From: Gavia stellata
Taxonomy: Eukaryota > Chordata > Aves > Gaviiformes > Gaviidae
DNA: 64,000 nt
Assembly (NCBI RefSeq): GCF_030936135.1
Contig: NC_082595.1
Span: forward strand, 21,341,930-21,405,929
Reading direction: 5' to 3'
Shown here: in pieces, positions 5,806-64,000 of the stretch
Layout: every line of letters begins with the position of its first letter
How positions within the stretch are numbered: the stretch's first letter is position 1
Made by a program: the position numbers and the translations under genes
The notes under the pieces: generated by a model
Database searches by the model: none
What the model was told of the DNA's origin: nothing
What the model saw: the letters and a program-made list of their open reading frames with translations, nothing else

Positions 5806-5812
5806 TGCCTGA

Positions 5813-35883: not shown

Positions 35884-36094
35884 CTCAGTCGGTTTGTATA
35901 GGTATCTACACAGGTCTTCATTTTAGCCAACAAAGTCCCAACAGAAGTTTGTGACTCCAGCTGTTCTTCCTCCTCTTCAGTATTTTCCCCTGACAGAGGA
36001 AGCAGTAATGGTACCATCGATGTGCAGGATGCAATAGCACGGAGTAATTCTAGCAGGGCTCGGTAAAGGGGAACATGGCGGGCCATATCCAAAA
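35884..36094 (-). CDS. BIRC6: BIRC6 exon, most upstream in window
   Basis: Exon of 211 bases: two bases completing a codon, 69 codons, two carried into the next exon (AG|G arginine). It encodes LDMARHVPLYRALLELLRAI, then an acidic loop (GENTEEEEEQLESQ) and TSVGTLLAKMKTCVDTYTNR. The leucine-rich helices belong to the helical scaffold before the E2 module. The acceptor is TTTTTCTCTCTTAG and the donor GTAATC. Together the nine exons give 475 contiguous C-terminal residues of a protein that is about 4,850 residues long in mammals. Confidence 0.96.
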
Positions 36095-37652: not shown

Positions 37653-37692
37653 ATTTTATATATTTTATATACATATTTTATATATATATATC
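37653..37692. repeat. AT-rich simple repeat
   Basis: Runs of TTTTATATA and (TA)n, about 40 bases. Confidence 0.85.
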
Positions 37693-37804
37693 TCCATTCC
37701 TTATGCTCAGTCGCTAGCCAACAATGATTGCCCACAGAAAAATCCCCACAATGTGTAAAATGGCCTTAAAATAAACATGAATAGATCTGATGATGTGTGA
37801 ATTT

Positions 37805-37833
37805 AAAAAAAAAAAAAAGAAAAAAGAAAAAAA
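37805..37833. repeat. A-rich run
   Basis: Nearly pure adenine with scattered guanines, about 29 bases; not attached to a recognisable retroposon. Confidence 0.85.
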
Positions 37834-39902: not shown

Positions 39903-40018
39903 TAAAAAAAAAAAGAAAGAAAAAAAAAACCCCACAGAAAAAAAAATTCAAATCCACCCACAAACCACAAAACACACCACAACCCACACCAAAACAACCC
40001 ACCCACACCACACAGCAC
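39903..40018. repeat. A/C-rich insert inside CR1 3' tail
   Basis: Between 'tccaaccat' and 'caccatgccc', which are only about a dozen bases apart in the copies at 4.4 and 47.6 kb, this copy has about 115 extra bases made almost wholly of A and C: A-runs first, then CCACA-type units, with very few T. It is not a known CR1 segment. Confidence 0.9.
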
Positions 40019-40042
40019 CATGCCCATCAAGCCACATCCCAC

Positions 40043-41737
40043 AATGCCACATCCCCACGGCTCCTTGAATACCTCCAGGGAGGGTGACTCCACCACCTCC
40101 CTGGGCAGCCTCTTCCAATGTTTCACTACTCTCTCAGTAAAGAACTTTTTCCTAATATCCAGCCTGAACCTCCCCTGGCGCAACTTGAGGCCATTTCCTC
40201 TTGTCCTGTCGCTAGTCACTTGGGAGAAGAGACCAACACTCACCTCTCTGCAACCCCCTTTCAGGTAGTTGTAGAGAGCGATAAGGTCTCCCCTCAGCCT
40301 CCTCTTCTCCAGACTGAACAACCCCAGCTCCCTCAGCCGCTCCTCGTAAGACTTGTGCTCCAGACCCCTCACCAGCTTCGTTGCCCTTCTCTGGACACAC
40401 TCCAGCACCTCAATGTCCTTCTTGTAGTGAGGGGCCCAAAACTGAACACAGGATTCGAGGTGCGGCCTCACCAGCGCCGAGTACAGGGGCACGATCACCT
40501 CCCTACTCCTGCTGGCCACACTGTTTCTGATACAGGCCAGGATGTCATCGGCCTTCTTGGCCACCTGGGCACACTGCTGGCTCATATTCAGCCGGCTGTC
40601 AATCAACATCCCTAGGTCCTTTTCCGCCAGGCAGCTTTCCAGCCACTCGTCCCCCAGCCTGTAGCGTTGCATGGGGTTGTTGTGACCCAAGTGCAGGACC
40701 CGGCACTTGGCCTTGTTGAACCTCATCCGATTGGCCTGGGCCCATCGATCCAGACTGTCCAGATCCCTCTGCAGAGCCTTCCTACCCTCGAGCAGATCAA
40801 CACTCCCTCCCAACTTGGTGTCGTCTGCAAACTTGCTGAGGGAGCACTCAATCCCCTCATCCAGATCATCGATAAAGATATTAAACAAGACCGGCCCCAA
40901 AACTGAGCCCTGGGGGACTCTGCTTGTGACCGGCCGCCAGCTGGATTTCACCCCATTCACCACAACTCTCTGGGCTCGGCCATCCAGCCAGTTTTTTACC
41001 CAGCGAAGAGTGTACCTGTCTAAACCACGGGCCGCCAGTTTCTCCAGGAGAATACTATGGAAGACAGTGTCAAAGGCTTTACTAAAGTCCAGGTAGACAA
41101 CATCAACAGCCTTTCCCTCACCCACTAGGCAGGTCACCTGGTCATAGAAGGAGATCAGGTTGGTCAAGCAGGACCTGCCTTTCATGAACCTGTGCTGGCT
41201 GGGCCTGATCCCTTCGTTGTCCTGCACATGTCCCGTGAGCACCCTCAAGATGAGCCTCTCCATAACCTTCCCCGGTTCCGAGGTCAGGCTGACAGGCCTG
41301 TAGTTCCCCAGATCCTCCTTCCGGCCCTTCTTGTAGATGGGCGTCACATTGGCAATCCTCCAGTCATCCAGGACCTCCCCTGTTAACCAGGACTGTTGAT
41401 AAATGATGGAGAGCGGCTTGGCAAGCTCCTCCACCAGCTCCCTCAGCACCCTTGGGTGGATGCCATCAGGCCCCATAGACTTATGAGTGTCCAGGTGGCA
41501 TAGCAGGTCGTTAACTGCTTCCTCCTGGATCATGGGGAGCCTATTTTGCTCTCCATCCCTGTCTTCCAGCTCAGGGAGATGGATACCCTGAGGATACCTC
41601 GTCTGGCTATTAAAGACTGAGGCAAAGAAGGCATTAAGTACCTCAGCCTTTTCCTCATCCTTCGTGACAATGTTCCCCGCCGCATCCAGTAGAGGATGGA
41701 GATTCTCCTTGGCTCTCTTTTTGTTGTTAATGTATTT
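40043..41737 (-). pseudogene. CR1 reverse transcriptase domain, disrupted
   Basis: Reads [20 protein letters not shown], then [40 protein letters not shown], an intact [10 protein letters not shown] catalytic box and the thumb region. It is in the same frame as the endonuclease upstream but separated from it by an in-frame TAA at 41738-41740 (after DNKKCF). Near the C-terminus (about 40060, after EVFKE) an extra base shifts the frame, so the normal ending is lost and translation would run through the A/C-rich insert to a stop at 39890-39892. Non-functional. Confidence 0.92.
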
Positions 41738-41926
41738 TTAGAAGCATTTTTTGTTGTCCCTCACGACCGTGGCCAGGTTGAGCTCTAGCTGGGCTTTCGC
41801 CTTCCTAATTCCCTCTCTGCATGACCTAACGAGGTCCTTGTATTCTTCTTCACTTGCCTGCCCCTTTTTCCAGAGGTGGTAAATTCTCTTTTTTTCCCCG
41901 AGCCTCAGCAAAAGCTCCCTGTTCAG

Positions 41927-42829
41927 TCAGGCCGGTCGTCTTCCCCGCCGGCTCTTCTTATGGCACATGGGCACTGCCTGCTCCTGCGCCTTCAAGATTT
42001 CCTTCTTGAAGAAGATCCAGCCTTCCTGGGCCCCTTTGCCCTTCAGGACCGTCTCCCAAGGGACCCTCTCAACCAGTGTCCTGAACAGGCCAAAGTCTGC
42101 CCTCTGGAAGTCCATGGTAGCAGTTTTGCTGACCCCCCTGCTTACTTGGCTAAAAATTGAAAACTCTATCATTTCATGGTCGCTAAGCCCAAGACGGCCT
42201 CCGACCTTCACTTCTTCCACCAGACCCTCACTGTTTGTAAACAGTAGGTCAAGCAGGGCACCTTCCCTGGTAGGCTCGCTTACCAGCTGGGTCAGGAAGT
42301 TATCTTCCACACACTCGAGGAACCTCTGGGACTGTTTCCTCTCAGCTGTGTTATACTTCCAGCAGACATCCGGTAAGTTGAAGTCCCCCACAAGAACAAG
42401 GGCTTGCGACTGTGAGACTTCTGCCAGTCGCTTGTAGAATGCTTCATTGGCTTCTACGCCTTGGTTGGGTGGTCTATAACAGACCCCCAGCAGGATATCC
42501 GCCTTGTTGGCCATCCCCCTCATCCTTACCCATAAGCATTCAACCCCGTCATGACAATCATCGAGCTCTATACAATCAAAGCACTCCTTGACGTACAGAG
42601 CCACCCCACCGCCTCTCCTTCCTTGCCTATCCCTCCTGAAGAGTTTATAGCCCTCCATCACAGCACTCCGGTCATGCGAGTCGTCCCACCATGTTTCTGT
42701 GATGGCGACCACGTCATAGCTGCCCCGCTGCACGATGGCTTCTAGCTCCTCCTGTTTGCTGCCCATGCTGTGTGCATTGGAATAGATGCACTTGAGTTGG
42801 GCTATCGATCTTGCCCTCGACAATGGCAC
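41927..42829 (-). pseudogene. CR1 ORF2 APE endonuclease domain
   Basis: Three hundred open codons with all recognisable APE-type endonuclease motifs: IYSNAHSMGSKQEELEAIV, VVAITETWWDDSHDRS, RRGGGVALYVKE, VLVGDFNLPDVCW and GLSDHEMIEF. This domain nicks target DNA for target-primed reverse transcription. It ends at a TGA (41927-41929) where the tryptophan of the RRPAWLNREL-type linker is expected. Upstream the frame is broken near 42830: the preceding part (VNKRELLNWSLVLG, to about 43100) reads in a different frame. It is therefore part of a dead element, although the domain itself is intact. Confidence 0.92.
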
Positions 42830-43110
42830 GTCACCCCTAGGCTCATCTCTAGGTAGCCTGGCTTCATCCCCTTCCCCCTTCCTGCCACACTGAGTAGGAC
42901 TGGACCGTCCCAGATGTTAGGCACACACAAACTGTGGAGTCTTTCACATCTGTCTGCTTTTGTGCTGTTGGTCGTCCCCGATTCTGCAGGGCAGTGAATT
43001 GCTGAGGAAGGACCAATCCCCAGTACCAGGGACCAGTTCAGAAGCTCCCTCTTGTTGACTCTCAAACAGAACTGCTGCCTGAGAGAGCCTACCTGAACTT
43101 TTGCTAGGTT

Positions 43111-46100
43111 TCCTGAGCATTTCTTCAAATGACTACTATATGCCACATCCTTACATCAAAAGAGAGGTAAAGATTAAATTATGTTATTACAAGACTCAGA
43201 GCAGGGATTTGCACTCAGTTTTTATCCTGCTTCCTTGTCTGCCTAAAACAGGGCTGGCAGGACAGGGCCACCTGGCAACAACAGTGTTGTCGCAGAAAAG
43301 GCTCCAAAGCCAGTGCCTGGAACATGGCTTTTGCACTGCCTGACCCAGTCTGCTTCCCTTGCAAGCTTCCTATGTGCTTCTCAACTTACATCCAGTAAAT
43401 ACACAACAAGGTCTCACCTTTTGGCTATACCAGTAGCTAACCAGTTCAAACAGTGGAGCATGAAGCAGAGCTCAAGCTAAAAACTGCTGCTGAACCTGGA
43501 GCATGAGCAGCCAGCTACAGGAGACCTGAAAAACAGCCCCTTGCCAGTGGGTGGAGGTGGCTGTGACAGCCCAGGGCAAGGGAGCCTCTGGGAGGTGACA
43601 GAGAGCAGCAGGGCAACACCACCACGGGGTGGGCAGCAAGACGATGACAGCAGTGCTCTTGAAGGTTGGAATCCCAGTGCTGCCACAGACAGCTGATTTA
43701 AAGGATAGTAACAGCAGCTTCTTTATTACCACCTTTGTTTTATTAATTGCAGGAATTACGAGTTCTAGAAGGATAAGTGGACATGTCCAAAAAACAGGTC
43801 GATGTCTTATTGTCCTTGATAATTAGCAAGGAAGTTCACTGTAGCCTTTCTGGACACAAGGCAGCATGCATATATACTCACAATTCACATCAAAAACGTG
43901 TCTCAGGTCTAAATTTATTCTTTTGCATTTATGAAAAGCAGAAATCTCAGCAAAGTCACTGTCATTTACTAAGACAGGTAGGGATGGCAAACATCTGGAA
44001 AATATCTCATGGTTTAGTGGGATAAGGTCTCATCCCTCCCTCCCATTCCTTTGGGTAATAAAGGTAAAATTTTACTGGAATCACTACAATTCAGTTAGCC
44101 TCTTGTCACACTGTTTGCAATTTAGAAAGACACTGAAGACTAAATGAGTAAAAACCAGACATTTCATAAAACCAGATCTCCCTTACATGCTAATAACAAG
44201 CAGTTCTGATTTGGGGGGTGGGGTGGAGGGAAGAGGAGTCTGACTGAAGCTATTTTAAGAAGTCTTGACTTTCAAAAACTGCTGAGCATCCCGTCTTTCG
44301 AAAACTGCAGTCTTTCACAAATGCCTAAAGGTCATGAGATATTAAGGTACTGATCACATTTTTGAAAACTTCTAGACACAGCCCTTATTCCTGGGAAGCA
44401 AATGATTACCATTCAAAGACTGTGTGTGTGATTTCAAAACATTTAAATTGCTTTCCACACATCTATTTATTCATCACCAATATAGATCTATTTCTTACAA
44501 AGACCTAAGACTACACATATGAAATTACAACCTTAATATAATGAAAAAGCATATGAGGGCAGGTGGTTTCATAGGATCAAGCTATCACCTTAAATTGCAT
44601 ATATATCTGTAACACGATAATGGCCCAACTGAGTCTAATACTCCTTTGATTTCTTTTAATATTATACAATACTCAAACAAAGAATAGCCAAGCCTAATGG
44701 CCCATTAAATAGATAGTACTGAACAGCAATAAATTTTTTTTGCAATTCATTTAACATCCTCAGTACAACTTAACTGGCTATGAATAAGATTATAAAACTT
44801 ATTTCCATTGCAAAGGTTATTTAAAATGTATCACAAAGAATATGCACATTTATTTTAAAATAGAGGAAATTATTAATATAGCATATCCATTCTATCAAAA
44901 AATCGTCACACTTTACAGCAGATTAAAGAAACAAATAGAGAATAATAATTTGTAAGAAAATGATGAAAAGTTGCATCTAATGTCAAGGCCTTCCTACCGT
45001 GATTCTCACTGTGACCAAACTAGGAATTCCTACCCCAAAGAGCTTACAAACTTGATGTAAAATAAAACAAAACATACACCTGAGGGGAAAAGAACCCCAA
45101 ACACCCTTACCAGTTTTACATATATCACATTGCGAGATGCATACCCTCCCTGCTTCTATACTACAAGAAAGACTGTATACAGATGCTCTCAATCTATTTC
45201 CTGTACATCATTTCTCATTTACTGGACTCGCTTCATTTCAGGACGACTTCTTGAATTTCGGTTATTTTAGAGGCCCACGAAAGTTTGACTTTTTCAAATT
45301 ATTTTTTCTTACGTGCAATTTCTTTATACTGACCAATACACATGACTGACTTTCTGCCTTTGTTGAAAGAAAGAAGGGTCTGCCGGCAGCCACAGCAGAA
45401 GGCACCACTGGAAACTCTTTCCAAATTACAGCCATTTTACTTGTTTTCTCTAAGAGTTTTGCCACTGCAAACACAAGAGGGATGGTCATGAATGGACAAT
45501 TAAAAGGATATAACTGAAAAAAAGGCATTCTGGAGAGAATGCATATCTAAAAATGGGAAATGTAAATTTAAATGAAAAAATTCTTGCAAATGGCTACAGA
45601 TGTGGCTTACATTTAACAGATCAGAAGAAGGGGGAAAAATGGGTTAAAACTTGTAATGAACAAATTGACCTCTATAATCAAAGACGAAGTTGAATTCTGA
45701 TTTTATAATTATGCTCTCATCTTCCATTCCAAGCGGCCTCTTTCTTGCATAGGGTAGAGTTACCAGAGACCCAAGAGACTCCTTCAAGTCTCATTTCTTA
45801 TTTTGTTTTGGTTTTGGATCTATTTTTCTCCTATTTCAATGAAACTTAGATGACAGGTTGTATTTTGTTAAATTATTTGTCCCAAAGTAGCCATCTAATC
45901 CTGTCTCTATTTTAAGTAACGTGAAAGAAAACCACTGACAGTTAGGTAGAGCAGCTGTATCATAAAACTGTTCTATTCACATCATGTACAAACGCTCAAA
46001 ATTTACTACAGTGTATCCAAACCTCCTCTGCAAAAAAGAAAAAGAAAATACCTTTGTATTCCAAGACACCTTTTTTTTCTTTCATAGTAATGAAGTTTAA

Positions 46101-47598
46101 AGCACATTGGTCTCATCAATTTAAGAAGCTAAAAGTAAAATAAGACATTCTCATTACCATGCTACCTACTAAAAAGTTTAGTCCAAGATCACAACTGGAG
46201 CACCACACACACCTGCCACTACATTTTTCTCTTTTATTTTACCTTTTTTTACCTCCAAATAATGTAAAAATAGATCTTAAAGTTCCATCAATTTCACACC
46301 ATTTCTAAAACATGATTAGTAATTACTGAGGACATATTTTTGATGCCTCAGTATGTTATTCACAAACCTAAAACCCATAGCCATGATTAAGACTTCAGGA
46401 TCTCATTATCGTATTAAAGACTCTCAGTAGCTACAAACACTGCTGTTCAAAAACACCACACAAAAGAAACACTCATTTTGTATTTTTAATTAAAACCTTC
46501 AGACGCAGTCTTGTGGCCACAGATACTGCCAAGCATGAGTGAGACACAGTGTCTTTCCAATAGGGCCACACATCCTTTTCCTAAATATTTTATAACTGGA
46601 GCAGTTCCTCAGTCCCCCTTTACTGCATCTTTGCAAACATATGATCTATGAATGCAGTTCACACTGCAGGCAATAGTGTCAGTTCCAAATACGTCATGCT
46701 CTATTGCCTCTTGATTTTCTGTTTCAGAATCAACCCAGGGCAAGCCTCTTTTATAATAGGCCTAATTAACACCCTGTGTTCTGCTCTGATTTGATAGAAA
46801 AAAGGATTGCCTACAGAGTATTTCAAAATCAGATCTCTTTAAGAAAACATTAGCCTTCAAGTAAAAATAAAACAAAAGCTTTCTAAATGTTGTCATCTTG
46901 TAACAATTTAATTAGCTTGACTTTTTCTTCACTTTTCTTTATAGGAATTAACACAAGCATTTTCACAGTACCATTTTGAGTATCAGAAAAAATGGCACCA
47001 GAAAAGACTAGTCCCCTTGCATAATGAAGCAGGAGAAGGAGAGGTTAAACCCCCTTACGGGTCATGAGTTTCAAATCCTGTGTCAGAGCAGTAAAACAAT
47101 GCAAGAAGGGTGGGCCTCTGAATTCAGCGTGTAGTGTCAGGCTCCAAGATGATTATTAATGTTCAGATACAGCCTTAAAATTTTGCTCTTCTGATGTCAG
47201 CACTGAGCCCATTAGCAGTCAAAAAAAAATTAAAAAAAATCATATCAAATGTTAGAAAAGGTGAAGAGAAATTAGTAATTACTTAATGAGACTGCACTCA
47301 ATCATTAGTACCACTTCAACACCATGTGCATTTTTCCCCTTTCTCAAACAGACAGGACAGAACTGGAAAAGGGACAAGAGAAAGGCGACTAAACAACCCA
47401 AGGTACAAAATGAGCTGCTGTACTATCTAAAATGAAATAAACTAAGACTTTGCAGCCTCAGTGACTAATGAAGTGTATGATAAAGGGGTTTTTTTTAAAT
47501 TATGAGTGGTAAAAAAAGTGAATAGAATTGGACTTATCAATACATTCACAGGACTAGGCACACCATTAGAAAAAATAATGCCACTTGTAAAGGAACAC
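43111..47598 (-). other. BIRC6: Large BIRC6 intron, middle part
   Basis: No recognisable gene or transposon. It includes a G-rich stretch at 44213-44230 and a somewhat more GC-rich patch at 43470-43640 with overlapping short frames that look like chance. Confidence 0.65.
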
Positions 47599-47812
47599 AC
47601 AGAATCATTAAGGTTGGAAGAGACCTGTAAGATCATCAAGTCCAACCATTAACCCAACACCACCATGCCCACTAAACCATGTCCTGAAGTGCCATGTCTA
47701 CACGTTTTTTGAACACCTCCAATGATGATGACTCCACCACCTCCCTGGGCAGCCTGTTCCAATGCCTGACCACTCTCTCAAGAAAGAAATTTTTCCTAAT
47801 ATCCAGTCTAAC
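47599..47812 (-). mobile_element. CR1 LINE 3' end, severely 5'-truncated
   Basis: About 214 bases of CR1 in minus orientation: the tail 'aatcattaaggttggaagag', then 'caccaccatgcccactaaac' and the end of ORF2 ('gggcagcctgttccaatgcc' to 'ttttcctaatatccagtcta'). It stops abruptly at about 47812. Same subfamily as the copies at 4.4 and 39.9 kb. Confidence 0.93.
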
Positions 47813-50800
47813 ACACTACACAACACATCACTGTTAAGCTTTGGAAAAGCTTAGCACTAAATGCTGGAGCAGTAAATATTGTTACAGGTTATAAAAGCAA
47901 TTGGGTAAATTAATGTAAGAACAGGACATCAACAGCTAATAAAGGAGGAGACACCACCCCTGGCAATATAGCAGCAATACTAGGGCAGCATCTGTATGTG
48001 AGCCCCATTCCTATACTCTCCCACAGGCATCTGTAATTGTCCACTACTGGCGATAAAGAAATGGGTAACAACCTTGGTCTGTCTTGGCATTGCTATTCTT
48101 TTAAGTGTCTTCTAGGAAACTTGGAAAAAAAAAAGTTTAACTGCAATATAAAAGGAAAACTGTGTATTTCAATTATAGAAGCAAAATACATTGCTCAAGT
48201 TAGTTGGTCAGTCATTTGGAGTTAGTGTAGTAATGTGGCTCAAGGGAGCAGACCATTGCTCTTAACTATTTCTGGTTTGCTTATTTTTAAAGAATAACTG
48301 ATTTTGGTGAAGTTAAGTATTTTCAGGAAAGTTTTGTTTACAAGTAAAGTTGAACAAAACTTAAAAACTTGGCATAAGTGTATCCATTAATTCAGAGAAA
48401 AACTTTGCCAGAAAAAGGACATGGCATTATTTCATTAGGCCAGTGTGTACAGAGTAAACAGACACTATTTCCTGTGTTTGGAAAGGACAGGAAAAAGAAA
48501 TCCAACCAATATAAAAGACATAAAAACCAAACTAAGCTTTTAAAGCATAAGTGGCTACTAATACCGTGCATGGTCCCCAGTTTTGGAGATACTACTATTT
48601 CCATACCATACCTGATAATGGAATTCATTAGAGAGATCACTCTCTGCCATTAAGTAGTGCTCCAAATAGTCTTGAGAAGGTGGTCAGGTAATGAAGGAAT
48701 CCTTATTGGAGGCTACAGAGGCATCTAACATGAGGGGTGGGGAATACATCATCAAGTAAGAATAATTAATGAAAACTAAAAAGGCAAAATTCTGTATTAA
48801 TTGGTTTTGTTTGTTTGAAAAAATGGCCCAGCAGGCATTGGTGTAGAAAGGGTGTGAGCAGAGTACTGCAGAGGAAGTTCATACTGCCACGCAATCCAAC
48901 CCCACTGCAACTTTTAAGAATCTCTCCTCTGAAAGATCACTCGTTTACCTAACATCAGTTCTTTAAAACAAGTAAAATGTGAAGAAACACAATTAAAGCA
49001 TAAAGCTATAACCAAATCATGCTTGTATCCAAACACAGAAAACAAGTGTAAGGAAGCATCAATGTAAAGCTACAGGATTGCTCTATATTATCCAATAAAT
49101 ACATAATGATATAAAGAAAGGCATAGATAAAAGAAAGATATAAAAAAGATGTGAAGAAATACATATAAAGGCATTCAGAGACTGCATGAGAATAAAGTTT
49201 TTTGCCTGGTCAAGGGATGAAAAAACCTACATTATTAATACAACTCTTTACTATGGCATTTAGTAAGATAAAAAGGACGAATAATTTCTATCTGAGGTAG
49301 ATGAAATAAATCTAATGTTAAAGGTAAGGTAGAAGCATGAAACTAATCTTCCACTTAGCCAAGAAAATAAGAAAAATACTTTCTGTAGAGAAAAAAAAAT
49401 GCAAGATTTAAGTCCTCTGCAGCCAAAATCTTTCCTGAAAAAGTAAAAATAAAACCAAAACAAATCAGGTGCAAGCTTGCCTACCACCTCATGTTAAATG
49501 TCTCAAGTGTAGGTGCTCCACAGAGATGAAAGGAAAAGTATCACTGCTCTAAGAACACAATGTAGGATTTTTAAGGAAGTTAATCTGGCTTTCATCATCC
49601 CTGCACTGGAGGAGGGAGTAGTGATTTCACTATTTTTGGCAGAGGAGCGGGCAAGCAGCCATCTTGAAATGGGCCTCAGTCTAGGCGTTACCCCTTCTAG
49701 CCCATAAAACAGTCACTAGTATTTTAGAGTAAGACGGGAATTGAAAATAAGATGGAAACCTGCCATTTCATTGCACATGCTGCAGAAATCAATATGGAAA
49801 ATCAAAATTAGGTAATGAAGTTGTGAGGTTTTTTTTAAACCATTACTTCAGCAGATGGAAAAAGGCCAAGACTCGGGTCTTCTGTCCTTACTGTCAGACT
49901 GTCAGCAGAGGATACCAACATTGTTACTGGAATGAAAGGACATGAGGTTCCTGTGCTTTATGGCAAACTTCCCATATGTGTGAGCACACCTACAAGATCA
50001 TGTCCTCAGGGGACAGAAAGGAGAATACTTAAGAATCTCATTCTGCCTTAAATATCTAATTATTTTGCTTGGCCAAGACGGCAAAGCCCCTGTGCATATG
50101 CAAAACAGAACCTTTATCACTTTAGTCTATTTTCTGGAGAATAGTTGGTTGTTTAAACACCAAGATGGGCTTCTGGTAAACATGCAAAGTGCAGGCTGAG
50201 GAGAAAAATTCAAGCCTAATAGCCTCCCTGAGTCTAAGTTAAATGAAAGGTAACCCCTTGCACTCACTGCATACTGAAAGTGCCTTAGAGTGCAAATAGC
50301 TATGTGGTAAATTTATCAACCAGTTTAACTGAGCACCACATATGACGGAGAGAATCATCTCCATGCCCCAGACTTGCAGAATAGGAGAATTTGCACCTTC
50401 CATGCAAACTCATGCAAGTTCCTGCATCACTTCTTAAAATGGATCATCCTCCATTATGTTAGAACATAACAACAAAGACAAACTCAGAAGAAAAGAAAAT
50501 ATTCTTTTGCTAATGAGTGGTACTATTTTGAAGTTGTCCTCTAGGGAGGACAGGAAGATATAAATACTAATAAAAAAGCTAGAGTTTGTGTGTTGGAATA
50601 ACCTACCATAAATTAACTCTTTCTAGACTAACTCCTTCAGCCACAGAGATCTGTTTCCTTTGACTTGTACTCAATATTATGACTACCCTCAGAGTACAGT
50701 CAGAAAGGAAATACCATGAATGGAAAGTGTCTGCATATGAGTATGGGAAATGCCAGATACATTTACAGTATTTTGTTTTCAAAAACAGGAAAAAAACCAC

Positions 50801-53800
50801 GAACACAAAAGAAATAAAAGACAAGTGAGACTGTTACTGCCTAGAATAACGAAGACCTACCACTTGATCAAACAAATGAGACTTTCAACTGCTGAAAATG
50901 AAAGCTGGCCCTCACCTCAATGTTCCAGTAAGTTCCTCTTCAAATGCATGCTGAGCTACACATCTCAGCTGACAAAACTCTTACCTGAAAGTACAGTGAG
51001 TGCTTTCTTACGTGAAGTAAAAATATCTAAAACTAACCCTTGCAATCTGCTCTGTACATGAACAGGAAGAAAGCGATTGCTAGTTTGTTTGGTCAAGAAA
51101 TTTTTAGCAGATTATCCAATTGTGCTGCCACTAATCGACAAAGCCACTAATATGGAAAAAGACAAAAAAATTGAAAATGCATGCATGCATTACAGTCCTT
51201 TCAGGAGTCTCTTGTGTGTACCAATAAAACATTTGTGCCCCGTTAGCAGCTACTGTATCTTTAGCAACAAGAACAAGGAAGGCATGAGAGTTAAAAAAAA
51301 AGGAAAAAAAGAAAGAAGCAGATCGTACATTTCTGCAATATAATATGGAACCGTAGGACATCTAGTATGGTGTCACATTCTCCTCTGATGTTATATTCTC
51401 TTCTCAAAAAGGATTGAGTCTGTTGGTAATGACAGGCATAATTTTTAAACTTAATTCTTAATGCCTCCAGTAAAATCTGTGAATGGTTGTAGCATGTGTT
51501 GCTGCACAGGAATCTATTCCAGACACCCAGCACTCATATTCCCAACCATGATTGGGATCCCAACCATTTGAGATGTACTGTTGACTAAAGTAAAATAAGA
51601 AAAAAATGGGAGGCCCAGTAACATTTACACTGGAAATTTTGAAAGATGCAGTGTGGTATCTCAAATTAAAGGGTCTGCTGAATGTGTTTACCAATTATCT
51701 TCAGAGGGAAAACCAGTCTAGTACTTACGGGTTACCAAACTTGTCCTGCAAACAGGGATATAGCTACCAGTTTTGGCTTCCAGTTATTGAAGGGAAAAAA
51801 GGAACTCCTGGATCAAACACTCACAGGCCTTAGCAATGAGATAAATGGACCAGGAAAGCTTAAGGATAGGCTCCCTCCACTTTAAACAAGGTGGAAGCTT
51901 TACTGCCATGTGCCTTGAACAGTCACACCAGTGACCTGTACTGTTTTCTGCACATTAAACAGCTATCGCAAGATGATGACAGTCTGTTGGCAGAGAGAAT
52001 TTAATGGAACACTTATGGCCCAAACTAAACACTTTTGAAGACAAGAGCCCCTACCTTTTATTTCTCAAGTGAATAATTAAAAATAAACATATAGAAACTA
52101 ACTTCAGGAATGAAATGAACACCAGCTGCATCTCAGGTATGATTTGTTAGCTTCTACACATCCTTGTATCAAGGATCAGCATCTAATTGCATTTCTCCTG
52201 AAAACGTATTAAAAAAAGATAACTCATCTGTGGGAGGCAGGAAGGCAAACAGTTTAGTTTCCTTTTACATAAAACATATTACACAGTGGAGTGCAAGGCA
52301 TCAAGGTCTGTCAAAAAAGTATATCTCATGTTAGTACTAGAAGAGTGATGTCTAAGTGGATCCAAAGGGGAATAGTAAAAAAAATTACAGGTCCTTGGCA
52401 GGCAGGTACAGATACATAAGCAGTCTGTTGTTCATGCTTTCAAGACAGTCATACTATCCTGTAACCACAGAGCTCCAGAACTTCATAGCCGTCTCCAGAT
52501 GAGAAAGAAACCTTGTTTACTTATGTTTTCAGGATTGTCCTGTAAAGCACGTTCAGTGGCTTAGTCATCATTTGGAACAATGTCTGTGATTTAAGGCTCA
52601 TAAAAACAAACAGACAAAAAACCCACCCCACTCTTGATTGCAGAGTACTGTTTTTCTGAAAAGTACTCTATTATGTAGGCAGCAGGACAAAGAATATGTG
52701 GGTGAGAAGCCCAAGAAGGAAGAACAAGGTGAGATGTGCGAAGTCACACTGACATCTAGCCTTTACCCCTCCTATTTCTCATCTGATAATTTCTTGACTA
52801 TCTTTCCCACAAAACTCCCTTCCTTCTGGAAAATCTAACAGGCACTTTAATTCACTGTGATCAAGTGAGGGGGGCCAGAGGTTGCAAGCTAGTCAGAAGT
52901 ATGCTCTGTACATGCAGCTGCAAAATCTACCACCAGCTGTGTAAATCAATGAAGAGCTCTCCAGTTAATGGATTTATGTTTAAAAGTCATATAGAACAAC
53001 GTGCAGTACAGAAACAGATAAAGATTGAAGCAGAAGTTACAGTCTCTCAGTGACCTTTGCTAAATAATAATTTGTTGACAAAAATATTTCCATTAGCTCT
53101 TTGAAGTAAGTAAACTTCAGTCTTTAAAGGACTAAGTGCTTTATCTGCCATACAAGCCAGTACCCAATCACAAACCAAATCTAAGCTGCTTCATTGCTTG
53201 TAACAACTAGGTTTTTAATCCTCAAAGATCTCAATGCCATGATGTTTCAATACATGCTTCATAATTACTACCTATGAATTACAACAAATTTCTGCAACAC
53301 AGTACAGCTAGAAGTATACATTTACAATTTGTTCTTTCATAAATATTTTATATCATTAATGACTTAGATAGTCGGTTTTGACATTTAAATAAAATTGTTA
53401 TTTATGTTCTACTCCAAAAGCACTATCTACTAGGAAACAGTATTTTCAAGTGCTTTGAAAATATAACAAGCATATATTCATATTCTTTTGCAATAGAAAA
53501 TAAGAGATTTCATGAGATGGTAATTTCAGCCTCTTATTCCAAAACTATTTCCAACTAAAGATGATAAATCAGAGGAAAAAGATGTGGCAAAAGGTGCTGA
53601 GATGGTGGTATCTTCTAGGTTGGTTGGTTTGTTTTTTAAGACCAGTCATCTGGAAACTGATACAGACAAGATTTGTTCTTTCTCACAAGGTAAGATGCTT
53701 TAAGGGCTCTGGAGAAAGAGGAACTTGTTTTAGTACTATTGTTTTATGATAGCCACCCTCTTGGACTAGGATCAGTTCCCACTACTCTGCTTCCCTTTGC

Positions 53801-56800
53801 TTGCCCAGTAAGGACACAATATTACCTTAATGGGACTCCTCCAACACAACAAAATTTATGAATATTTTGTTCAAAAACCTGGTACTTGAATGCCCTAATA
53901 CTCCTCCAGAACCACGCAGCCAACATTCAAAGCCATGTGAAGAAATAGTCCCAGATACCTGCTGTCTTTGACAAAAACCCTCTTAAGCTGCAGAGAACAG
54001 CACTGAATCACAACTGAAACATTTTAGAAGTTACTAACTGCTTTTTAAAGGTACAATACCCATAGAAGAGATTCTTTTTGACACCAGTGAAGAAGAGAAA
54101 AATGAAGACTACCTGATAAGCCATGTGAGACTAGGGACTGAAGAAGAGAAAAAAACCCTCTCTCTTTTTTTCCATCATTCCCTTCCACCATATCCAGAAG
54201 GCCACCACACACAGTTGGGGCTGAAACCCTCACCTCTAACTCAGGAACATTCATGAGACACCAACTTCCGAGTTGCTTCAGTTCATCAAGACAGTGATTA
54301 AAATAGTTCCCTCAAAACCATTATGTGACACGTCACTCGACACCCTCCAAAGGCAGGTTGGCTCAGTTTTTCCTAAACTATTACGCAACTGTCAAACTTA
54401 CCGCTTTTCTTGACAAAACACCAGTGTGCATTCTGACCATATTCACAGACAATAAAGCAGTGGCTGATCTTAACTGGTGCTAAGAGAAGCTGGTGTCACA
54501 AGGGGTGTGGCAGAAGAACCGGTACTACTCTGGTCTGTTCAACTGATATCTTAACAAAGAACTATTTTAAAGCAAATGTGAGAGACTGGAACAAGTAAAT
54601 TTTTGGTAAGTGAAGACTGACAGGTGGGAACAATCTAGAGGAACTTCTGCAGTTAGTTATGAGATAATTCTGGATTTTTCCAAGGATATTCTGGGTTGGT
54701 AACTAAGTTACAAAATCAGAAAAAAACCCTCAGACAATAGCCAAAAGGCATTGAAGTTCCTCAATCAGAAGGAAAACAAGATGTAGACACACAGTTGAAG
54801 TGTCATCAAGTCAATGTTGAGATGAAACACATAAAAGAGGTGTGAATGAGAATAGTAAGAAACCTAAAAGTAACTTGTGTTGCTACTGATGAAGGACCCG
54901 AGTTCTTCCTCTTTTTTTAACAGAAGAATAAAAAAAATACTTTGAAACCTGTCTCAAATTGGCCATGCCCATCCCTGCTGACTCAAGGGCAGCACACATC
55001 AATCTATATCATAAAAATAGGCTAACAGCTCCCACAAAGAAAGCAGTAGCTGTGCTTAGTTCTCAGGAGAGAGAGGAAAAAAAAAAAAAGAAACAAAGAA
55101 AAAAAACCTAAGGAAGAAGGAAGGAGCATGGATCAACTTCTTGCTTATGCTAAGCGAACCAGTTCGTCTTAATTTGTGCATACTACTGCATCTCCCAACA
55201 GACACAGCTTTGCTCTGTTGTTCTGCAATTTAACTGAAAAAGTGTCAGATCTCAGAAGTTTGTGGAGGTTGTCAGAGAAGAAAACTAGAATGCATCACCT
55301 ACAGGATGCATGTGCTACTACATTTCAAGTACTTTCCTGCGTCTTAGGGAAAATGCAGAACAACTCCAAGGAAAAACAGTCTTCATGGACAACTGATGTA
55401 TGAATGATCTTTTGGATTTCATTACAGCATTTTAACTAAATAGATTTTTAAGTCTAGACAGTTCTTTACATTTTTCTTTTCATTTTCTCCTTCAAATCTT
55501 CCTTTACATTCTGCTTTAACTTGTGATCTTCAGAGCATTTGCCCTCTATAAGAGCAAACAATATCTGACTCAAAACACGCTATTTTAATGAAAAAATACA
55601 GGATATAGAATAATTTTAGAGTACATGAAAATCAAAACTACATAAATCCATAAAAATACATGAGGAAAAAGAAAATTTACACTTTGGTTAAAAGTACTTG
55701 TTCCTTTTGTAAATGTGATGTTATGGGTGTACCACATTACTCACAGAAGTAGCATATAGCAGGATAATGATCATCTAAGGATCAAGACTGTAAATCACTG
55801 AATTTATACCACTGATTTTTTACAAGATAGCCTGGCAACTCCCTCTTGAAGTATTAATATCTTTAAAATATGACATACATTTGTATTGCCTAAGGTCTAT
55901 TCCCATGCAATACAAATGCTCAGACATCACCAGTAATGAACAGAATGACCTCTAATCAACAGAATTTGTTCTGCTCTTGGGATGCTACATAAAATCAGTT
56001 ACCAAGGAGTTGCCAAAGTCTTGCTAAGTGCTTGAAAGCTCTGCCTCGACGGAAGTAACATAATTAAATTTAGGACAGTTTTGGATACCAGTGTCCAAAC
56101 CCAAATACTATGTAACCATGTAATGTTCACCCCCAAAACAGGTGGTTTTGTTATTGACTTGTATAAAACGTACTCCCAGGCTAATATTATTTTACACAAA
56201 ATGTAAAATATCTCCCCATCTTTCCAGATATCATCAAATACTATGGATAAATCAAGACCTTTTCAAATCAACCTATACTACTCACTTTACTCATGTGAGA
56301 AATCTCACATGAAATTTTCTCTTCATACTGAAGATGCACTGTAGCTATAACATGGATGAATTCCTCAAGTTTCCTACAACTGAGACATGTTAAGCCTGAC
56401 AACCTTTTTCTTTCCTTCCCCCCCCTCCTCCGGCCCCAGCAACTCTTTGCCAACACTGACAGCTAAACCAGTTACTGCTCCATCCCTCTTACTGCGCTAG
56501 AGATCTATTTTTGGCTGGGTCTGTTTTCCAAACCAGTTCACGGCATGTCCGCACAGAAACACGTATCAATACAATGGAAGGACAAGGTGGGGGGAGAAAT
56601 GCCATCAAACCAAGGTCCATGGCAAACACTGGATCTGAATCACGGTGTGCAGGAGATGTCGCTCCCCCTCAACTGCATGCAGAGGGAGCCCAGAGAGATC
56701 TGTTTCCCTGGGTTCACCTTAGCCACTGAAGTGCCAGTTGCATCAGAACTATGAAAACTGCAGACCTCAACCATGGCAATAATCAAGCCAAGAAATATTT

Positions 56801-59800
56801 TGTGAATCTTTTTCTGCTTTCTGTAGACACATCTTAATTAGCTGGTTATTTGCAGTGTAGCTGCTGAATTTACTTTATTGTTGCTATTTATACTTGACAA
56901 TATTGCAAGAAATTCTTCCGCTGACGTTGAATCTTTACACCTGGCTGTGTTAACAAGGTGACAGATTCCTACCCTCTAAATACATCATTAATCTTTAAAT
57001 CCAAGATGCACATTGCACAATTTCCCCCCTTTCACAAAGCAAAGGGTTTGATTTTTAGCATGTAAGGGTTAATACAGTACAATGGCTTGAAAATTTGGTT
57101 ATCGCTAGGTGCTCTCAGCAACGTGAATGGTCAGAATGCACAGGTGAAAATTTCTCCATCTTTGTGTCTCTGAATTGTTCCAAATGAATAGAGAAACACG
57201 TTCAAGATACACAGACAGAAAACAATTCCAGGAACAACTGAAGTTGCAGCAACATTTTCGGAATAAGGGAAGAGCTTAAAAGTAAAGACCATATACACAT
57301 ATTAGAATATATTTTAAGGAAGATATGCTGCAGAGATTTAACATAATTACTTAATTCTTCTAGAATGAAACAATTTCACTGAGGCAACATGACTTTCAGG
57401 ATAAACAGCACATCATGTACAAGTACCACACAGCTCACAGTTCTTCAAACATGGTATTTACCATTAAAATAATGCACATGTAAAATATGTGGTTTTGGCC
57501 ATTAGTAAGAAACTAACAAATGTACTTAGACACTTTAGAAAAATAACGATAAAAAAATTTTAATGTGTAAGTAAATTAATTTGAAAATGGAAGTATATAA
57601 AGCAACAATTTTACCCTCTTTTGCTTTCTCACAAAAAGATTATTGAAAACTGAATTTCAAACAATGCCTTGTAATTTCTAAAATACACTGTTCTGGAAAG
57701 TGATCAAGGTTTCCAGTTACAACCCTACTGTTTGCATTCAATGTAATTAATTATCTTCTGATTTTTCATATGCATAAGCTTTTTTTACTTTTGAATTCTG
57801 AATTGCTTGATACTGCAAGTATTTTTTTTTAAATTAGTTTTCCAATATGTGTAAAATATAGCTGCTTTCATATCAAGAAGCTATGCTATATCAACAAAAA
57901 CATATTGCATTGGTAGCCTTCATAGAACAAAGTGACTGAATAAAATTATTTGAAACACAGCTACTTGCAGAGGTTATTAAAATTGTGGCTTTTTATCTGA
58001 AGAGATTGGGAAGAAGAGAAGACTTCGCAGAGCTCCCCCCCACCCTTTCCAATAGAGCAGGCAAAAAATACCTCTCTGATTTACCTAGAAAAAAAATGAG
58101 TCAACGTTTCCTATGAAATCAGAACAGGAATATTTTTCTTTAAGTCTGTGTTTTCATTAATTCCACACTAACCTGCATTCTTTGGGTGGCAAATAAAAAG
58201 GCGAAAAGCATTAGAAGTAGTATTTCCTATAGCAACAATTGCCTGTCAAACAAAGCATAAAAAGACAAAAGGCAGAAACACTGTTTCAGCTTGAATGCCT
58301 TAATGTCACCATTTGTCATGCAGCACTTCTTCAGAAAACCCCGAAGTACAGTTAACTCTACTCCTCTTTACACCGCTCACTTTCTCTGTTGGTACAGGAT
58401 TAAAATGTGCCAGGCCTGACAATGAAACAGCAGAGCCATCGCACATTGTTATGCAACTCACTGTCTGCAAGGGTGGCTCGTAGCTCCTTCTTTATTCAGC
58501 AAGTGCCAAGTGCATGTTTAATCAATGTCACAGCTCACCACAGTGTGCAACTACAGCCACTGTCATTCCTCTCTTCAGATTTGCCTGGCTAAGTTATGCA
58601 ATGCTCCGAAGAATACCTTGGAATTCTTTCCAGAGGCTCTGAATGCAGGTGTCTGACAGTGTTCACACTATTGCCAGTAAAGCAGACTTCTTTTCATCCT
58701 TTCTCAGGCTGGACTAAAATTACATAGTGTGACTGCACGTAGTTCGCTGCATTTGGAATTACAGCATGTCAATGTGAGAAAGCCTCTTCAGACCGCTGCC
58801 ACAAAGAGTAAATCAAAGGCTGGGTTTTTCTGAAGTCTTAATAAATAACTAAGTATACTGAATTAAACCAGGAGCTGTTAGCATTTTTTTTTTTTTTAAA
58901 AGACAAAACCAAACAGCATGCATTTCGTTGCTCTGCATCATCTAAGGAAAAAAAATCCTCAATTTTAATGAGAATTAGTCAACAGTGAGGATCATTACCA
59001 GAAAGGGTTTTACTGTTTTTCGACTACACTTGCTTTAGTGGATTACTGAGAGAGAAGGCCAGTCATTTGGAAGATTCTGTAACGTTATTATCCTCACCGA
59101 TAAACTTCTTCATCAAGGAACTGTTCATGCTCCTATCTGGTCTATCTGAGTAAGGAGAGCAGCCCCTTCATGAAGATAAAAGCCTGGTTTGCCACTGAAT
59201 CGACGAGTAAGAAGCATGTCTGATGACATTTTATTCCTGATGCAATGTAGGGTAAGAAACATCTTTTTTTTTTTTTACCTTTCTGTGAGATACGCTCTGA
59301 GCTGATGGCTTTAATTAGACTCACAGCAGAAATACGCTGATCTCCAATGATTAAAGATGTTTGCCAGGAGAGAAAAATGCTATTGCACTATAAAATGTGA
59401 TTTTAAATTTTCATTAAATCAGGGTTATCTGAACTAGTAGAAATCCCAATCAAATTTTGGTTTAAGGTTAGAAATTTCTGATCAATAAGGCTAAAACAAG
59501 ATAGCAGATTACATATAATATCAACATCTCAGCCACCAATGAACATAATTTTACAGGGAACATGTTTCTAGAGGATATTTGACTGTCAATTAAGAGCACA
59601 AGAACAGCTAAGTAATAGAGACGACCTGTCAATATCACTTTTGCAACAAAAAAGGTAATAAATCATATACGCATCTGTAAATATCTATCTCAAGTCCATA
59701 TATTGCATAGAATTTTGTTACTATAAAAGTACTACTGTCCTTTGGCATACTGCAATAATAAGCATATACAATGATAACAACAACCTTTATATTTGAAGAG

Positions 59801-60397
59801 GCAGAGATTTTCTGTTAAATGTTTACTGTTGCATGGATGTCCAAAAGCTGATCTATTAAACAAGTAAAAGGATAAGATCTCACCTGCAATTGCCTACTTG
59901 GGGCTCACTGGTCAAAAAAGACTGTGATACTGTATCAAGGAGACATATTTTCCATGCTCAAAAAGAGCAGACGTGAATATTTTCAACTGTTTTTGTACTG
60001 TAACAGTTAAATATTTAACAACAGCTGAAAATTCACATACTCTGAAATGCCTGGGGAGGTTATTTGACAATGCTTACATACCTCCTTTCATCAATCTGAT
60101 GTTTCCTAAGGAAACAAATTAGCTGGCTAAAGACAAATTTTAAATTTCTTTTATAATAAAGCATTTTAATTGACTTGAAGCATCAAGCTATTTCTCACTC
60201 CTTCTGCCAAATCTGTATCTACAGAACAATTACTTTTAACATGGACATGTTCATGCAAAAAGAAAACAAAAGATGACTACAACTCAATAAACATAGCATT
60301 GAGAAATACTGTGTAAAGAAGTACAGAATTGTTTTTAAAAAGATCAAAGCTTGCACATTTGTCAGACTAGATTTACCACTTGCTTTCTTTCTTCTAG
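47813..60397 (-). other. BIRC6: Large BIRC6 intron, distal part; upstream flank of the TUNAR-like exon
   Basis: About 12.6 kb with no BIRC6 exon that I recognise. Low-complexity runs occur at 55077-55107 (A-rich), 58885-58899 (poly-T) and 59264-59276 (poly-T). If the TUNAR-like gene has first exons and a promoter in this window they should be here on the + strand, but I found no CpG island or convincing first exon. The stretch 56510-56760 is more GC-rich than its surroundings and carries two overlapping frames of about 70 codons without recognisable content. Confidence 0.6.
55077..55107. repeat. A-rich run
   Basis: Poly-A with G and C interruptions, about 30 bases. Confidence 0.85.
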
Positions 60398-60640
60398 CTA
60401 GCTGCCAGAATACTGGTGAAGGTATTTGCAGGAAAAATGGGGACCTCTGCCATCACAACACCGGAAGATGTAAAAAGGCAAGAGGAGAAAGAGGAAAAAG
60501 AAGAATCTATTTTAGCACTGCTTGGGATTATTGGAACTGTGCTCAATTTATTTGTTATTGTTTTTGTGTACATCTACACTACACTTTGATGACATTTTTG
60601 AACATCAATTGCACAGCACACAGTGCAAAGACCAGCGATG
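60398..60640 (+). other. TUNAR-like: Predicted coding exon of a TUNAR-like (linc-birc6/megamind-type) gene
   Basis: A 243-base segment bounded on the left by an excellent 3' splice site (TTGCTTTCTTTCTTCTAG ending at 60397) and on the right by a good 5' splice site (GATG|GTAAGA, donor GT at 60641-60642). It contains the whole 50-codon frame at 60437-60589. Alternatively the right donor is not used and the exon is terminal, running to the poly(A) signal at 61141. The gene is antisense to BIRC6 and wholly within its large intron. As I recall, the zebrafish lncRNA linc-birc6 (megamind) has the same arrangement and is related to mammalian TUNA/TUNAR. Confidence 0.7.
60437..60589 (+). CDS. TUNAR-like: TUNAR-family micropeptide, 50 aa, single-pass membrane
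   Basis: Fifty codons and a TGA. The ATG has a strong Kozak context (A at -3, G at +4) and is the only in-frame ATG upstream of the hydrophobic part. Residues 1-12 are short and polar, 13-23 form a charged run (KRQEEKEEKEE), 24-47 are hydrophobic with LGIIGTVLNLFVIVFVYIY, and the chain ends TTL. That C-terminal half matches TUNAR (also pTUNAR, NEMEP, BNLN), which in mammals is 48 residues and ends in the same FVYIYTTL; by memory about 25 of the last 30 positions are identical, while the N-termini differ. TUNAR sits in the ER membrane and has been reported to bind SERCA2 and affect calcium handling, and to act in neural differentiation and beta cells; the same role here is inference. The position in BIRC6 differs from that of mammalian TUNAR, so this is likely a paralogue. 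Thirteen open codons lie between the acceptor and the ATG, so an N-terminal extension is possible. Confidence 0.85.
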   Translation: MGTSAITTPEDVKRQEEKEEKEESILALLGIIGTVLNLFVIVFVYIYTTL

Positions 60641-63600
60641 GTAAGAATGATTTCTAAATTTAAAGCAAAAAACCCCCACTGTCTGAAAAAGATTATCGAA
60701 AACATTCCAGAGCAAAGTGTCTGGCTAAGGGCACTGCATCAATGGCTGCTAAATGTATCTGTGAGCCCAGCTAGGGTGCTAAATTACATAAATGAAGGCA
60801 GATGTTATTCAACTTCTCATTGATAACAGATGAAATCCAAATAGCAGAAACAGAGATGGCACTGTTTTATTGCCGGCAAACATGCAAGACACCAGAAATG
60901 TAAGCAAGCAGTGAAAACATTCAGAACATAGAAAGAGATCAATTAAATATATAAATACATATAAGCAAGCCCCACGATGCTTTCTATGGTTTTGTGCAAT
61001 ATGTTTCTTCATAGCCGAGACCAGAAAACAGACAAAAGGATTTTATTTTTAGATCACCATAATTTTGGCTTATAACTTACACTAAGGTATAATAAGTGTG
61101 GAAAGAGGAACAACGTTATACATGAAATTGTAATAGTATAAATAAAATTTTAACTATTGACTACATTCTGCAGCATTTTTGTTAGTCTTGTGGCAAGCTG
61201 AAAAAGGTTAGATTTTCTTGCCTTTACTGAATCTGTACTTGAAATCATCATGCTATACTTACGATGTGCTTTTCTAATTAAAAATCCTTTAAAGTGGTGT
61301 GAAAAAATAAAGCATAGTTTCAGTACTTCTTTTACGCGATATTAACAATTACAATGACACACTAACACAAACGAAAAAAATCTTAAGTTACATTTTCTAT
61401 ATCGCCATTTTTAGAACATGTTTAACATAAGTCAAATACAACTTTCATGTTTTCATCCTGATGTTTATTTTCAAGTAAAATAAAACATATCACACAAGGA
61501 TTCATGGTGTTGCATGAAAACAGGTTTAATAACTTTGCCCAGAAGAGTGTACTCTCGCTTTCTGGGCCAGGTCCTGAAGACATTTTTCCTTTTTGTAACG
61601 TTTATGAATGTGGCCCAGAATTGCAACTCTTATGCATACTTCATGGAACATGCAATTAGACTAATGAAACTGACAAAAATATTTCCTTGTTTTAAATTAA
61701 ACCTATGTATGCCTTTGAAATAAATCCAAAGCTGCAGACGGTCTGAGATCATAGAAGTTTTTATATATATGAATGTATCTCACATGTATCTTCTGATAGA
61801 AAAGCTACTTTTGAGAGCTTAGCATTAAAAACACAGTAGAACAACAACACTAAAAAAAAAAGAGGAGACACTGATTTTAATAAATACCATTCTTAGTATT
61901 ACATGTACCCCAGAGGAACAATGGAAGACCTTCATTTTGGAAAATAAGCTTAGTTCCTTCTCCTAGGCTGCAAAGCTACATCCAGTCCTTCCATAAAATA
62001 ACAAGCAAAGAAATACGTTCTTTGTATAGGTGATAGCTTATTACTGTATAGAACTTCATAACTGCTAAATCAACTGAGCCTTTGGAAGTCACTTCTAAAC
62101 AAGCACATGCATAAAATAAGGTCAGGGATCTAGAACAGAATGAATTTGGCAATGATATTTCAGTCAGTGGCAGAAACTGCACTGTAACACACTGATTTAT
62201 GGACGAATGAGGTGGAAGATGGTATATTCTGGTTTTGCCACTCTGAGTCAACACTGGCTCATCCAGAAGAAATGATAAACAGCACTAAGGCTGCACTGGA
62301 AGGAAGCATGTGCAGACAAGAAGATCTATTCACAATCCATAGTCTACAGCAAATCTCTAGTATTGTATACTCATTTTCAGTATGTAAAGCACCAAAGCAT
62401 TCTGTAAAACTAAGCTACATTCTAAAGCAATTATGCAGGTTATTCATGTTTATTTAAGACTATAGAATAGAGTCAATACTTTCTTAAATTTTTCAAGGTA
62501 CTTCTTATATCTACATACTTCGGAATATTATTGCATTAATCTTGTAATACAAGGATATTTGAGATGGGGCTTAAAATGAGAGGTTACAAGAACCTGAAAA
62601 CTGAACAGAAATAGAAATTCAGGTAGAAATTACTGCTGTTTATTTTGATCCTGAAGTTATTTAAAACTTGTCAATTCTGTGAAATAAATAAACAAACACT
62701 TTTATTTCATGCCATTTCAGTGCATAGCTCTCTCCTCGAAACTGTGAATCAACTGATACACCAGCACTGGAGTGAGATACTGCACCTTTTTTGGAAACAC
62801 TTCAATAGCAGAACAAATAAAAAGCAATTCCAAAGTTGTAACTAAATGTAGCAAAGGTGCACCATCATTCTTCTACCAGTGAATGAGTTCATTAACATTA
62901 AGGAAAACTAGTGGAATTTTTAATTTCAGTAATTACATACTGTCTATCTAAATTGCCATTGTATTTCTGATTTCGCTTATAGCAAAAGGCTTTGACCCTT
63001 TGAAGGAAGTCACAGGGTAATATTATCATAAGAGACTGCCCTGGCATGCGAGTTACATTTTGTATTAAACCAGAAATCCAATAACCTCTCTTAACGGGCA
63101 ATACTTGTGCCTCTATACTCAGGTGGACCTAAGTCTAACTATAGTTAAATGAGCTGCAATATACAGCTTTGGTGCTTATATGTTTAATCCAATATACGCA
63201 TGCATAAGAATCTCAACTACTAAAAATATCTTAACAGCAACTACCTCTTATTAGACACAGTAAAAAGTCAATAGTCTAGGGAAAAGCAGAATTTCACGAC
63301 AATTCAACATTTACACTGCAGCAGTACCTTCACACCTTCAGCAATGGATAAATAAAGATGCAGTACTTCTTAGCTGAATAAGCTCAATGTACCAACTTCA
63401 GAGATCCATAAGGGAAGATAAGCTTGCTAAAGTACTCACCCTAGTCAGTCCAGTGGAACTGGACTACTTTGCAAAAAGTAAAGCAACACCATATAATGCC
63501 TTGAGAATATGTATGATTAATAGAAAAGAAATACTCTAACTTCAGCAGGAAATCTAGTGTAGTTCAAGCTCTGAGGTAAGGAGGTGAGGCCTGAAAAGTA

Positions 63601-64000
63601 CGACTTTAATGGACTCAACCAACAAAGGCTGAAAGAATTCAGTACATTCACCTTCAACAGATCTGTCCATAGTACTTAATAAATAAAGTTCACAATGAGG
63701 TATTTGGCAGCAGGATGAAGCAGCACAACTGTTAATACATACACAAGTCCAGGGTCCAATAGTATTTGGTAAACTATGAAAGGTGCATTAAAAGCAAATA
63801 CTGGACTCTTATGAAGTGGAACATGCTGGTCAGTAAACACAATCCTTTTAGAAAAGCCCTCACATAGGAATGCATCATCTCTTCTCAGCAGTCAAACCCC
63901 AGGAAGACTAAACTAATCTAACACCAAAAGCTATGCTGACCACATCACATGGAGTCTTTGTCCACCAAAGAAGGAAGGATGACTAAGAGAGCTAAGAGGG
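60641..64000. other. BIRC6: Large BIRC6 intron, right edge
   Basis: Contains the possible 3' UTR or downstream intron of the TUNAR-like gene, then AT-rich DNA. I recognise no BIRC6 exon, repeat family or RNA gene up to the window edge. Short frames such as 61976-62254 and 62898-63101 (both -) resemble nothing known. Confidence 0.6.
61141..61146 (+). terminator. TUNAR-like: Candidate poly(A) signal of the TUNAR-like gene
   Basis: AATAAA about 550 bases after the stop codon, followed within 35-60 bases by T/GT-rich sequence (TTTTTGTTAGTCTTGTGG). Other AATAAA hexamers lie near 61306 and 61477. This is the first well-placed one if the coding exon is terminal. Confidence 0.45.

Follow-up and report, generated by a model that had tools for sequence, protein, structure and literature searches.

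A probable TUNAR-like microprotein gene with two coding exons, antisense within a BIRC6 intron of Gavia stellata

Gene content of the locus

The window analysed is the 64,000-nucleotide stretch C2:21341930-21405929 of Gavia stellata, and the genome searched was the 1.32-Gb assembly. Minus-strand frames of the window matched BIRC6 chains in the PDB (residue numbering follows 8atm; Table 1), and a further frame, corresponding to residues 4323-4383, was found just past the window end (L003 4385-4651, minus strand). The BIRC6 exons bracketing the TUNAR-like gene are consecutive (8atm 4383/4384). The intron between them is bounded by an acceptor AG at 36096-36095 and a donor at L003:4459/4458 (window-equivalent 68459/68458) and measures 32,364 bp. 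This single 32.4-kb intron holds, on the opposite strand, the two coding exons known for the TUNAR-like gene. The BIRC6 Pfam domain was located farther along the same contig, on the same strand as the BIRC6 exons. The original prediction had proposed a nested antisense position within a BIRC6 intron, and the consecutive minus-strand exons on both sides, the far one just beyond the window, establish it.

Table 1. Coordinates of BIRC6 and TUNAR-like features in the window
Feature	Position	Strand	Evidence
BIRC6 frame, ubiquitin-conjugating domain, 8atm residues 4613-4667	22203..22388	-	PDB match
BIRC6 frame, 8atm residues 4539-4613	23022..23327	-	PDB match
BIRC6 frame, 8atm residues 4450-4504, E 6.5e-21	25303..25512	-	PDB match
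BIRC6 exon 3' of the host intron	35884..36094	-	frame 35883-36158 = 8atm 4383-4454, E 3.1e-34
Host BIRC6 intron, part in the window; extends to window-equivalent 68458	36095..64000	-	acceptor and donor
Coding exon 1, ATG...AGG, MSDDILFLMQCR, 12 codons, then donor GTAAGA	59216..59251	+	P0008 and donor
Phase-0 intron, 1146 bp, GTAAGA...TTCTTCTAG	59252..60397	+	sequence; same intron in C7 TUNAR
Coding part of exon 2, LAARILVKVFAGK, inner Met 60437, 50-aa core, TGA	60398..60589	+	sequence, PF21954
ORF of 50 codons, TUNAR domain and transmembrane helix	60437..60589	+	PF21954, 73.6 bits; hydropathy
Candidate donor G/GTAAG 3' of the stop; intron would begin at 60641	60640..60645	+	sequence only

Roughly 150 bp separate the BIRC6 exon at 36094 from a 111-aa open frame in the host intron (36244-36576, minus strand). 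This frame was rejected as a BIRC6 exon, as the exons on either side of it follow directly on each other in the BIRC6 residue numbering; it had neither a PDB match at E<=0.001 nor a Pfam match, and its trimmed frame gave one weak, unrelated match (E 1.6) at E<=10. The same intron hosts a LINE at 39893-42916 (minus strand), which we take to be CR1-like, with a 615-aa frame carrying a PF00078 reverse transcriptase and, immediately upstream of it, a 329-aa frame with a PF03372 endonuclease. Resembling reverse-transcriptase-like frames were noticed by eye at 34200-35375 and 4449-5843 (-).

Membership in the TUNAR family

The plus-strand frame 60437-60589 reads as 50 codons followed by TGA (60587-60589). 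Since the interval 59500-61500 is overlapped by 23 ORFs of 30 aa or more, its size by itself is not unusual, and homology, not length, constitutes the evidence. The TUNAR profile PF21954 matched the ORF with an E value of 1.2e-20 and 73.6 bits, far beyond the cut-off of 27 bits, and the gene scored 72.1 bits when the genome was searched with the same profile. With the 50-aa core as protein query, 70 of 71 candidates matched at E<=1, and PF21954 was present on all 70 of these matches; P0002-P0008 were 94-98% identical to the window over the core. Core residue 9 is P in the window (60461-60463, CCG) and L in these other bird-like matches.

The inner Met at 60437 has a strong start context (GGAAAAATGG, with A at -3 and G at +4). 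The core consists of a charged N-terminus followed by a C-terminal transmembrane helix at about residues 25-46, ending YIYTTL, with a hydropathy maximum of 2.81 at residues 25-44, and is of a predicted tail-anchored form. The coordinates, codon count and Kozak context of the original prediction, as well as its charged N-terminus and single helix, agreed in all points with these readings. Its likening of the peptide to the C-terminal half of TUNAR was right as to the family and too narrow as to the extent, the match covering nearly the whole model (profile positions 6-48 of 48).

Coding structure and products

The gene had been equated with the 50-codon ORF, which is indeed present, and the coding exon upstream of it (59216-59251) had been overlooked. 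Exon 1 joins position 60398 in phase 0, giving a product of 75 aa; in-frame stops precede the first ATG, and the coding sequence is free of internal stops and has consensus splice sites. Protein P0008 (75 aa) reads MSDDILFLMQCR-LAARILVKVFAGK-MGTS... across the exon junction, unbroken. This record comes from the source 'lgn' (25 contigs, the longest of 4901 bases), and because 1146 bp separate the two exons in the window genome, it is probably derived from spliced RNA. When the joined 75-aa sequence was used as query (79 matches from 82 candidates), P0008 and the snake Pituophis protein P0011 matched over the full length, at 96% and 80% identity. A single-exon gene for 50 aa was rejected in view of the P0008 junction, these full-length matches and exon 1 with its donor in the window. 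A further 3' exon is possible, given the candidate donor past the stop.

Judging from its two start codons, the gene can yield either 75 aa from the first ATG or the 50-aa core from the strong inner one. The N-terminal extension, identical at 25 of 25 residues between the window and P0008, has a net charge of +2 and is moderately amphipathic; it was conserved in snake, amphibians, sturgeon and eels and weakly conserved in percomorph fish (P0031, P0035, P0037), and may add a second function. A stronger version of this idea, in which the 75-aa form is the main product, its extension giving another destination or a second partner, and the 50-aa form is minor, seems to us less likely than not. The conservation of exon 1 together with the extension in the lineages just named, the agreement with P0008 and the presence of an equivalent first exon in TUNAR copies are in its favor; however, the inner Met, shared by every one of the 32 alignment rows, stands in a strong context, whereas T occupies +4 at the first ATG, and the hydrophobic moment of the extension reaches only 0.41. 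Moreover, ribosome reads of TUNAR are stated to prefer the short form about threefold (authors' data not shown; PMC8758570).

No CpG island was found 5' of exon 1 (observed/expected at most 0.42 in 500-bp windows over 58001-60000), and Rfam gave 0 matches at the gathering threshold across the whole window. The interval 61001-61500, about 0.4 kb past the stop, had the highest CpG ratio of the 500-bp windows in 54-64 kb (observed/expected 0.68, at 29% GC).

A second copy in the genome and coding constraint

Two family members were recovered from the genome, the window gene and a copy at C7:17098422-17098565 (minus strand), by a protein search, which scored 3 candidates, as well as by a profile search, which scored 11. 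The two proteins are 71% identical over residues 9-50. The C7 copy clustered with the TUNAR proteins of Rissa and Sarcoramphus in the tree described below (support 100/93) and is, on this placement, TUNAR proper. Its acceptor (AG/GTTGTCCTG) lies 13 codons before the inner Met. Its first exon was not found within about 10 kb upstream and was found farther up, about 28.5 kb upstream at C7:17127184 (13 codons, MLCASHLFLMHCM/GTAAGG). Thus, a phase-0 intron position 13 codons before the inner Met is common to both genes.

This shared coding intron bears on the suggestion that a retrocopy or relic of TUNAR had inserted into BIRC6, which would be in keeping with the fact that none of the 25 named records in the 70 core matches bears a bird name. 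The retention of the TUNAR phase-0 intron in the window gene means that it is not a retrocopy, and a retrocopy is excluded on that ground. A relic would also be at odds with the stop-free coding sequence, the consensus splice sites, the 94-98% core identity of P0002-P0008 and the placement of the window gene alongside fish and amphibians in the tree, and we regard this whole explanation as extremely improbable.

Comparison of the window gene with the C7 copy over the last 42 codons gave pS 0.83, which is saturated, and pN 0.21, with 12, 4 and 27 mismatches at codon positions 1, 2 and 3. Downstream of the stop, the first 150 nt of the two copies, compared without gaps, were 20% identical. Three bird-like proteins reading past the stop (P0004, P0006 and P0072) showed 1, 1 and 2 differences from the window in the core, counted by eye, and insertions or deletions beyond it. 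In a 32-row alignment 21 columns, including the inner Met, were invariant, and the helix with the residues directly before it was the most conserved part in both paralogues. That the gene is protein-coding, as originally proposed, is supported on comparative grounds by the PF21954 match, the homologues, the P0008 junction and the pS and pN values.

Phylogeny and origin of the two genes

An unrooted tree was built from 47 rows chosen among 191 fetched proteins, over 73 columns. A branch with 100/100 support parted 20 TUNAR-like rows, including the window gene, from 27 TUNAR rows, and the window gene grouped with the TUNAR-like proteins of snake, amphibians and fish, outside the TUNAR clade. With TUNAR itself separate on C7 and on the opposite side of this branch, the idea that the window gene is a TUNAR paralogue was upheld. 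Ray-finned fish and tetrapods were present on each side, and both genes were found in three named species, Pituophis catenifer annectens (P0011/P0064), Menidia menidia (P0037/P0086) and Knipowitschia caucasica (P0056/P0178). The simplest reading of this distribution is that the duplication predates the split between fish and tetrapods, and the copies fit two sisters of one duplication. Against this reading, fish and amniotes were grouped together within the TUNAR-like side, with amphibians outside (98/94); this contradicts the species tree and shows the low resolving power of 73 columns.

The age of the duplication can also be approached through other gene families of the two chromosomes. The SIX pairs and the EML pairs date from whole-genome duplication, and matches of both families occurred on C2 and C7: five SIX-family matches in the genome were divided between C2 (2) and C7 (3), and eight HELP (EML-family) matches among C2 (1), C7 (4) and C23 (3). 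TUNAR and TUNAR-like are thus a probable pair of that age, and an origin in the early vertebrate whole-genome duplications appears most likely, although HELP matches fall on C23 as well.

Annotation and taxonomic distribution

Neither birds nor mammals were found among the names in the core search (25 of 70 matches named) or in the 75-aa search (27 of 79 named). A search with nine TUNAR queries gave 395 matches among the 8000 best candidates, and the best 120 of these 395 included seven mammal-named and two bird-named TUNAR proteins. Since TUNAR of both groups is named among the matches listed, mammals and birds are represented in the database; no mammal- or bird-named protein occurred in the TUNAR-like group among the named matches. 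It is likely, on these records, that mammals kept TUNAR and lost TUNAR-like; most matches of the core and 75-aa searches are nameless, and the best 120 of the 395 TUNAR matches were those inspected.

Snake, amphibian and fish records of the gene are entered at NCBI as 'protein TUNAR-like', 'protein TUNAR' or hypothetical protein. The gene therefore looks unannotated in birds, yet known in other vertebrates. The expectation that annotation would miss it seems to hold for birds, with 0 bird names in the 25 named of the 70 matches, and failed for snake, amphibians and fish, in which it is already recorded. NCBI names and clades did not always agree: Anomaloglossus P0013 is named 'protein TUNAR' but was placed on the TUNAR-like side, and Acipenser P0063, named 'TUNAR-like isoform X1', on the TUNAR side.

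Known systems and the megamind question

The window gene resembles TUNAR (also pTUNAR or BNLN; 48 aa, PF21954) in its domain, its near-identical helix and the two-exon coding structure seen on C7. Unlike TUNAR, it lies in a BIRC6 intron and belongs to a separate clade (100/100); it has an acidic EEKEEKEES where TUNAR has KESKEES, and its core is two residues longer. The snake, amphibian and fish proteins entered as 'Protein TUNAR-like' are the same gene as that of the window, being in the same clade, with the snake protein P0011 at 80% identity over 75 aa. Regulins and DWORF are likewise small single-helix ER proteins, possibly with the same target, the ER location of the window product being predicted. 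However, the regulin motif xLFxxF, as given in PMC8758570, is absent from the window, where the second F of LFVIVF stands one position beyond the one required; a lack of this motif is also described for mammalian TUNAR (PMC8758570).

The antisense position of the window gene in a BIRC6 intron has a possible counterpart in fish. Zebrafish megamind (linc-birc6), named after birc6 and described as a lincRNA, lies antisense in a birc6 intron. In the literature it has been equated with TUNAR (PMC8758570, PMC5300904, PMC6347452, PMC12019361), and linc-birc6 has been mentioned as a lincRNA (PMC3877055, PMC7494506). In the part of the TUNAR and megamind literature surveyed, a second TUNAR gene located in BIRC6 was not mentioned. 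We give an even chance to the possibility that megamind/linc-birc6 is the fish orthologue of the window gene, and hence a protein-coding paralogue rather than an orthologue of TUNAR, mammals having lost the BIRC6-nested gene.

These first descriptions of megamind and TUNA also invite the opposite emphasis, in which the locus functions chiefly through a regulatory RNA, with the peptide in a secondary role. The naming of zebrafish linc-birc6/megamind as a lincRNA (PMC3877055, PMC7494506) is consistent with it, as is the description of mammalian TUNA as a lncRNA, for which function at both levels was not ruled out (PMC6886504). However, replacement sites were held between the copies while synonymous sites were saturated, the 21 invariant columns of the 32-row alignment include the inner Met, and the zebrafish megamind mutant was reported to be without phenotype and the morpholino to be non-specific (PMC6347452, citing Kok 2015). 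A mainly RNA-based function appears quite improbable in the face of these observations.

Proposed function

The window gene is very probably a protein-coding TUNAR-like paralogue, antisense to BIRC6, with two coding exons, paired with TUNAR since the early whole-genome duplications, and a putative SERCA tuner. Its transcription and translation in Gavia stellata are presumed, and so, by analogy with TUNAR, are the ER location and SERCA binding of the peptide. Mammalian TUNAR has been reported to be expressed in neurons, to be located in the ER (mouse TUNAR), to co-immunoprecipitate with SERCA2 and, upon overexpression, to speed calcium reuptake (PMC8758570). Li 2021, as cited in the same paper, found SERCA3 and a decreased reuptake in beta cells, so that the two reports on the effect of TUNAR on SERCA point in opposite directions (PMC8758570). 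For BNLN, ER location and lowered ER calcium have been reviewed (PMC12733331).

As the helix and the preceding residues are the most conserved part in both paralogues, a target shared with TUNAR is our best guess, and we lean somewhat towards it. The TUNAR-like peptide would be tail-anchored in the ER membrane, where its invariant helix would bind SERCA pumps, and this binding would set calcium reuptake in neurons or endocrine cells. Differing N-termini and promoters could allow each of the two copies to serve its own tissues or SERCA isoforms.

The paralogue itself was already present in NCBI records; what is new is the avian gene, with its exon structure, location and probable origin. The TUNAR family would then comprise two ancient sister genes, of which the one antisense within a BIRC6 intron was apparently lost by mammals, and the two paralogues would offer a means to separate SERCA isoform or tissue specificity. 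The disputed megamind lincRNA gains a concrete test, peptide versus RNA. If megamind is indeed the fish orthologue of the window gene, the cross-species comparison of megamind with TUNA was one between two microprotein genes that are ancient sisters.
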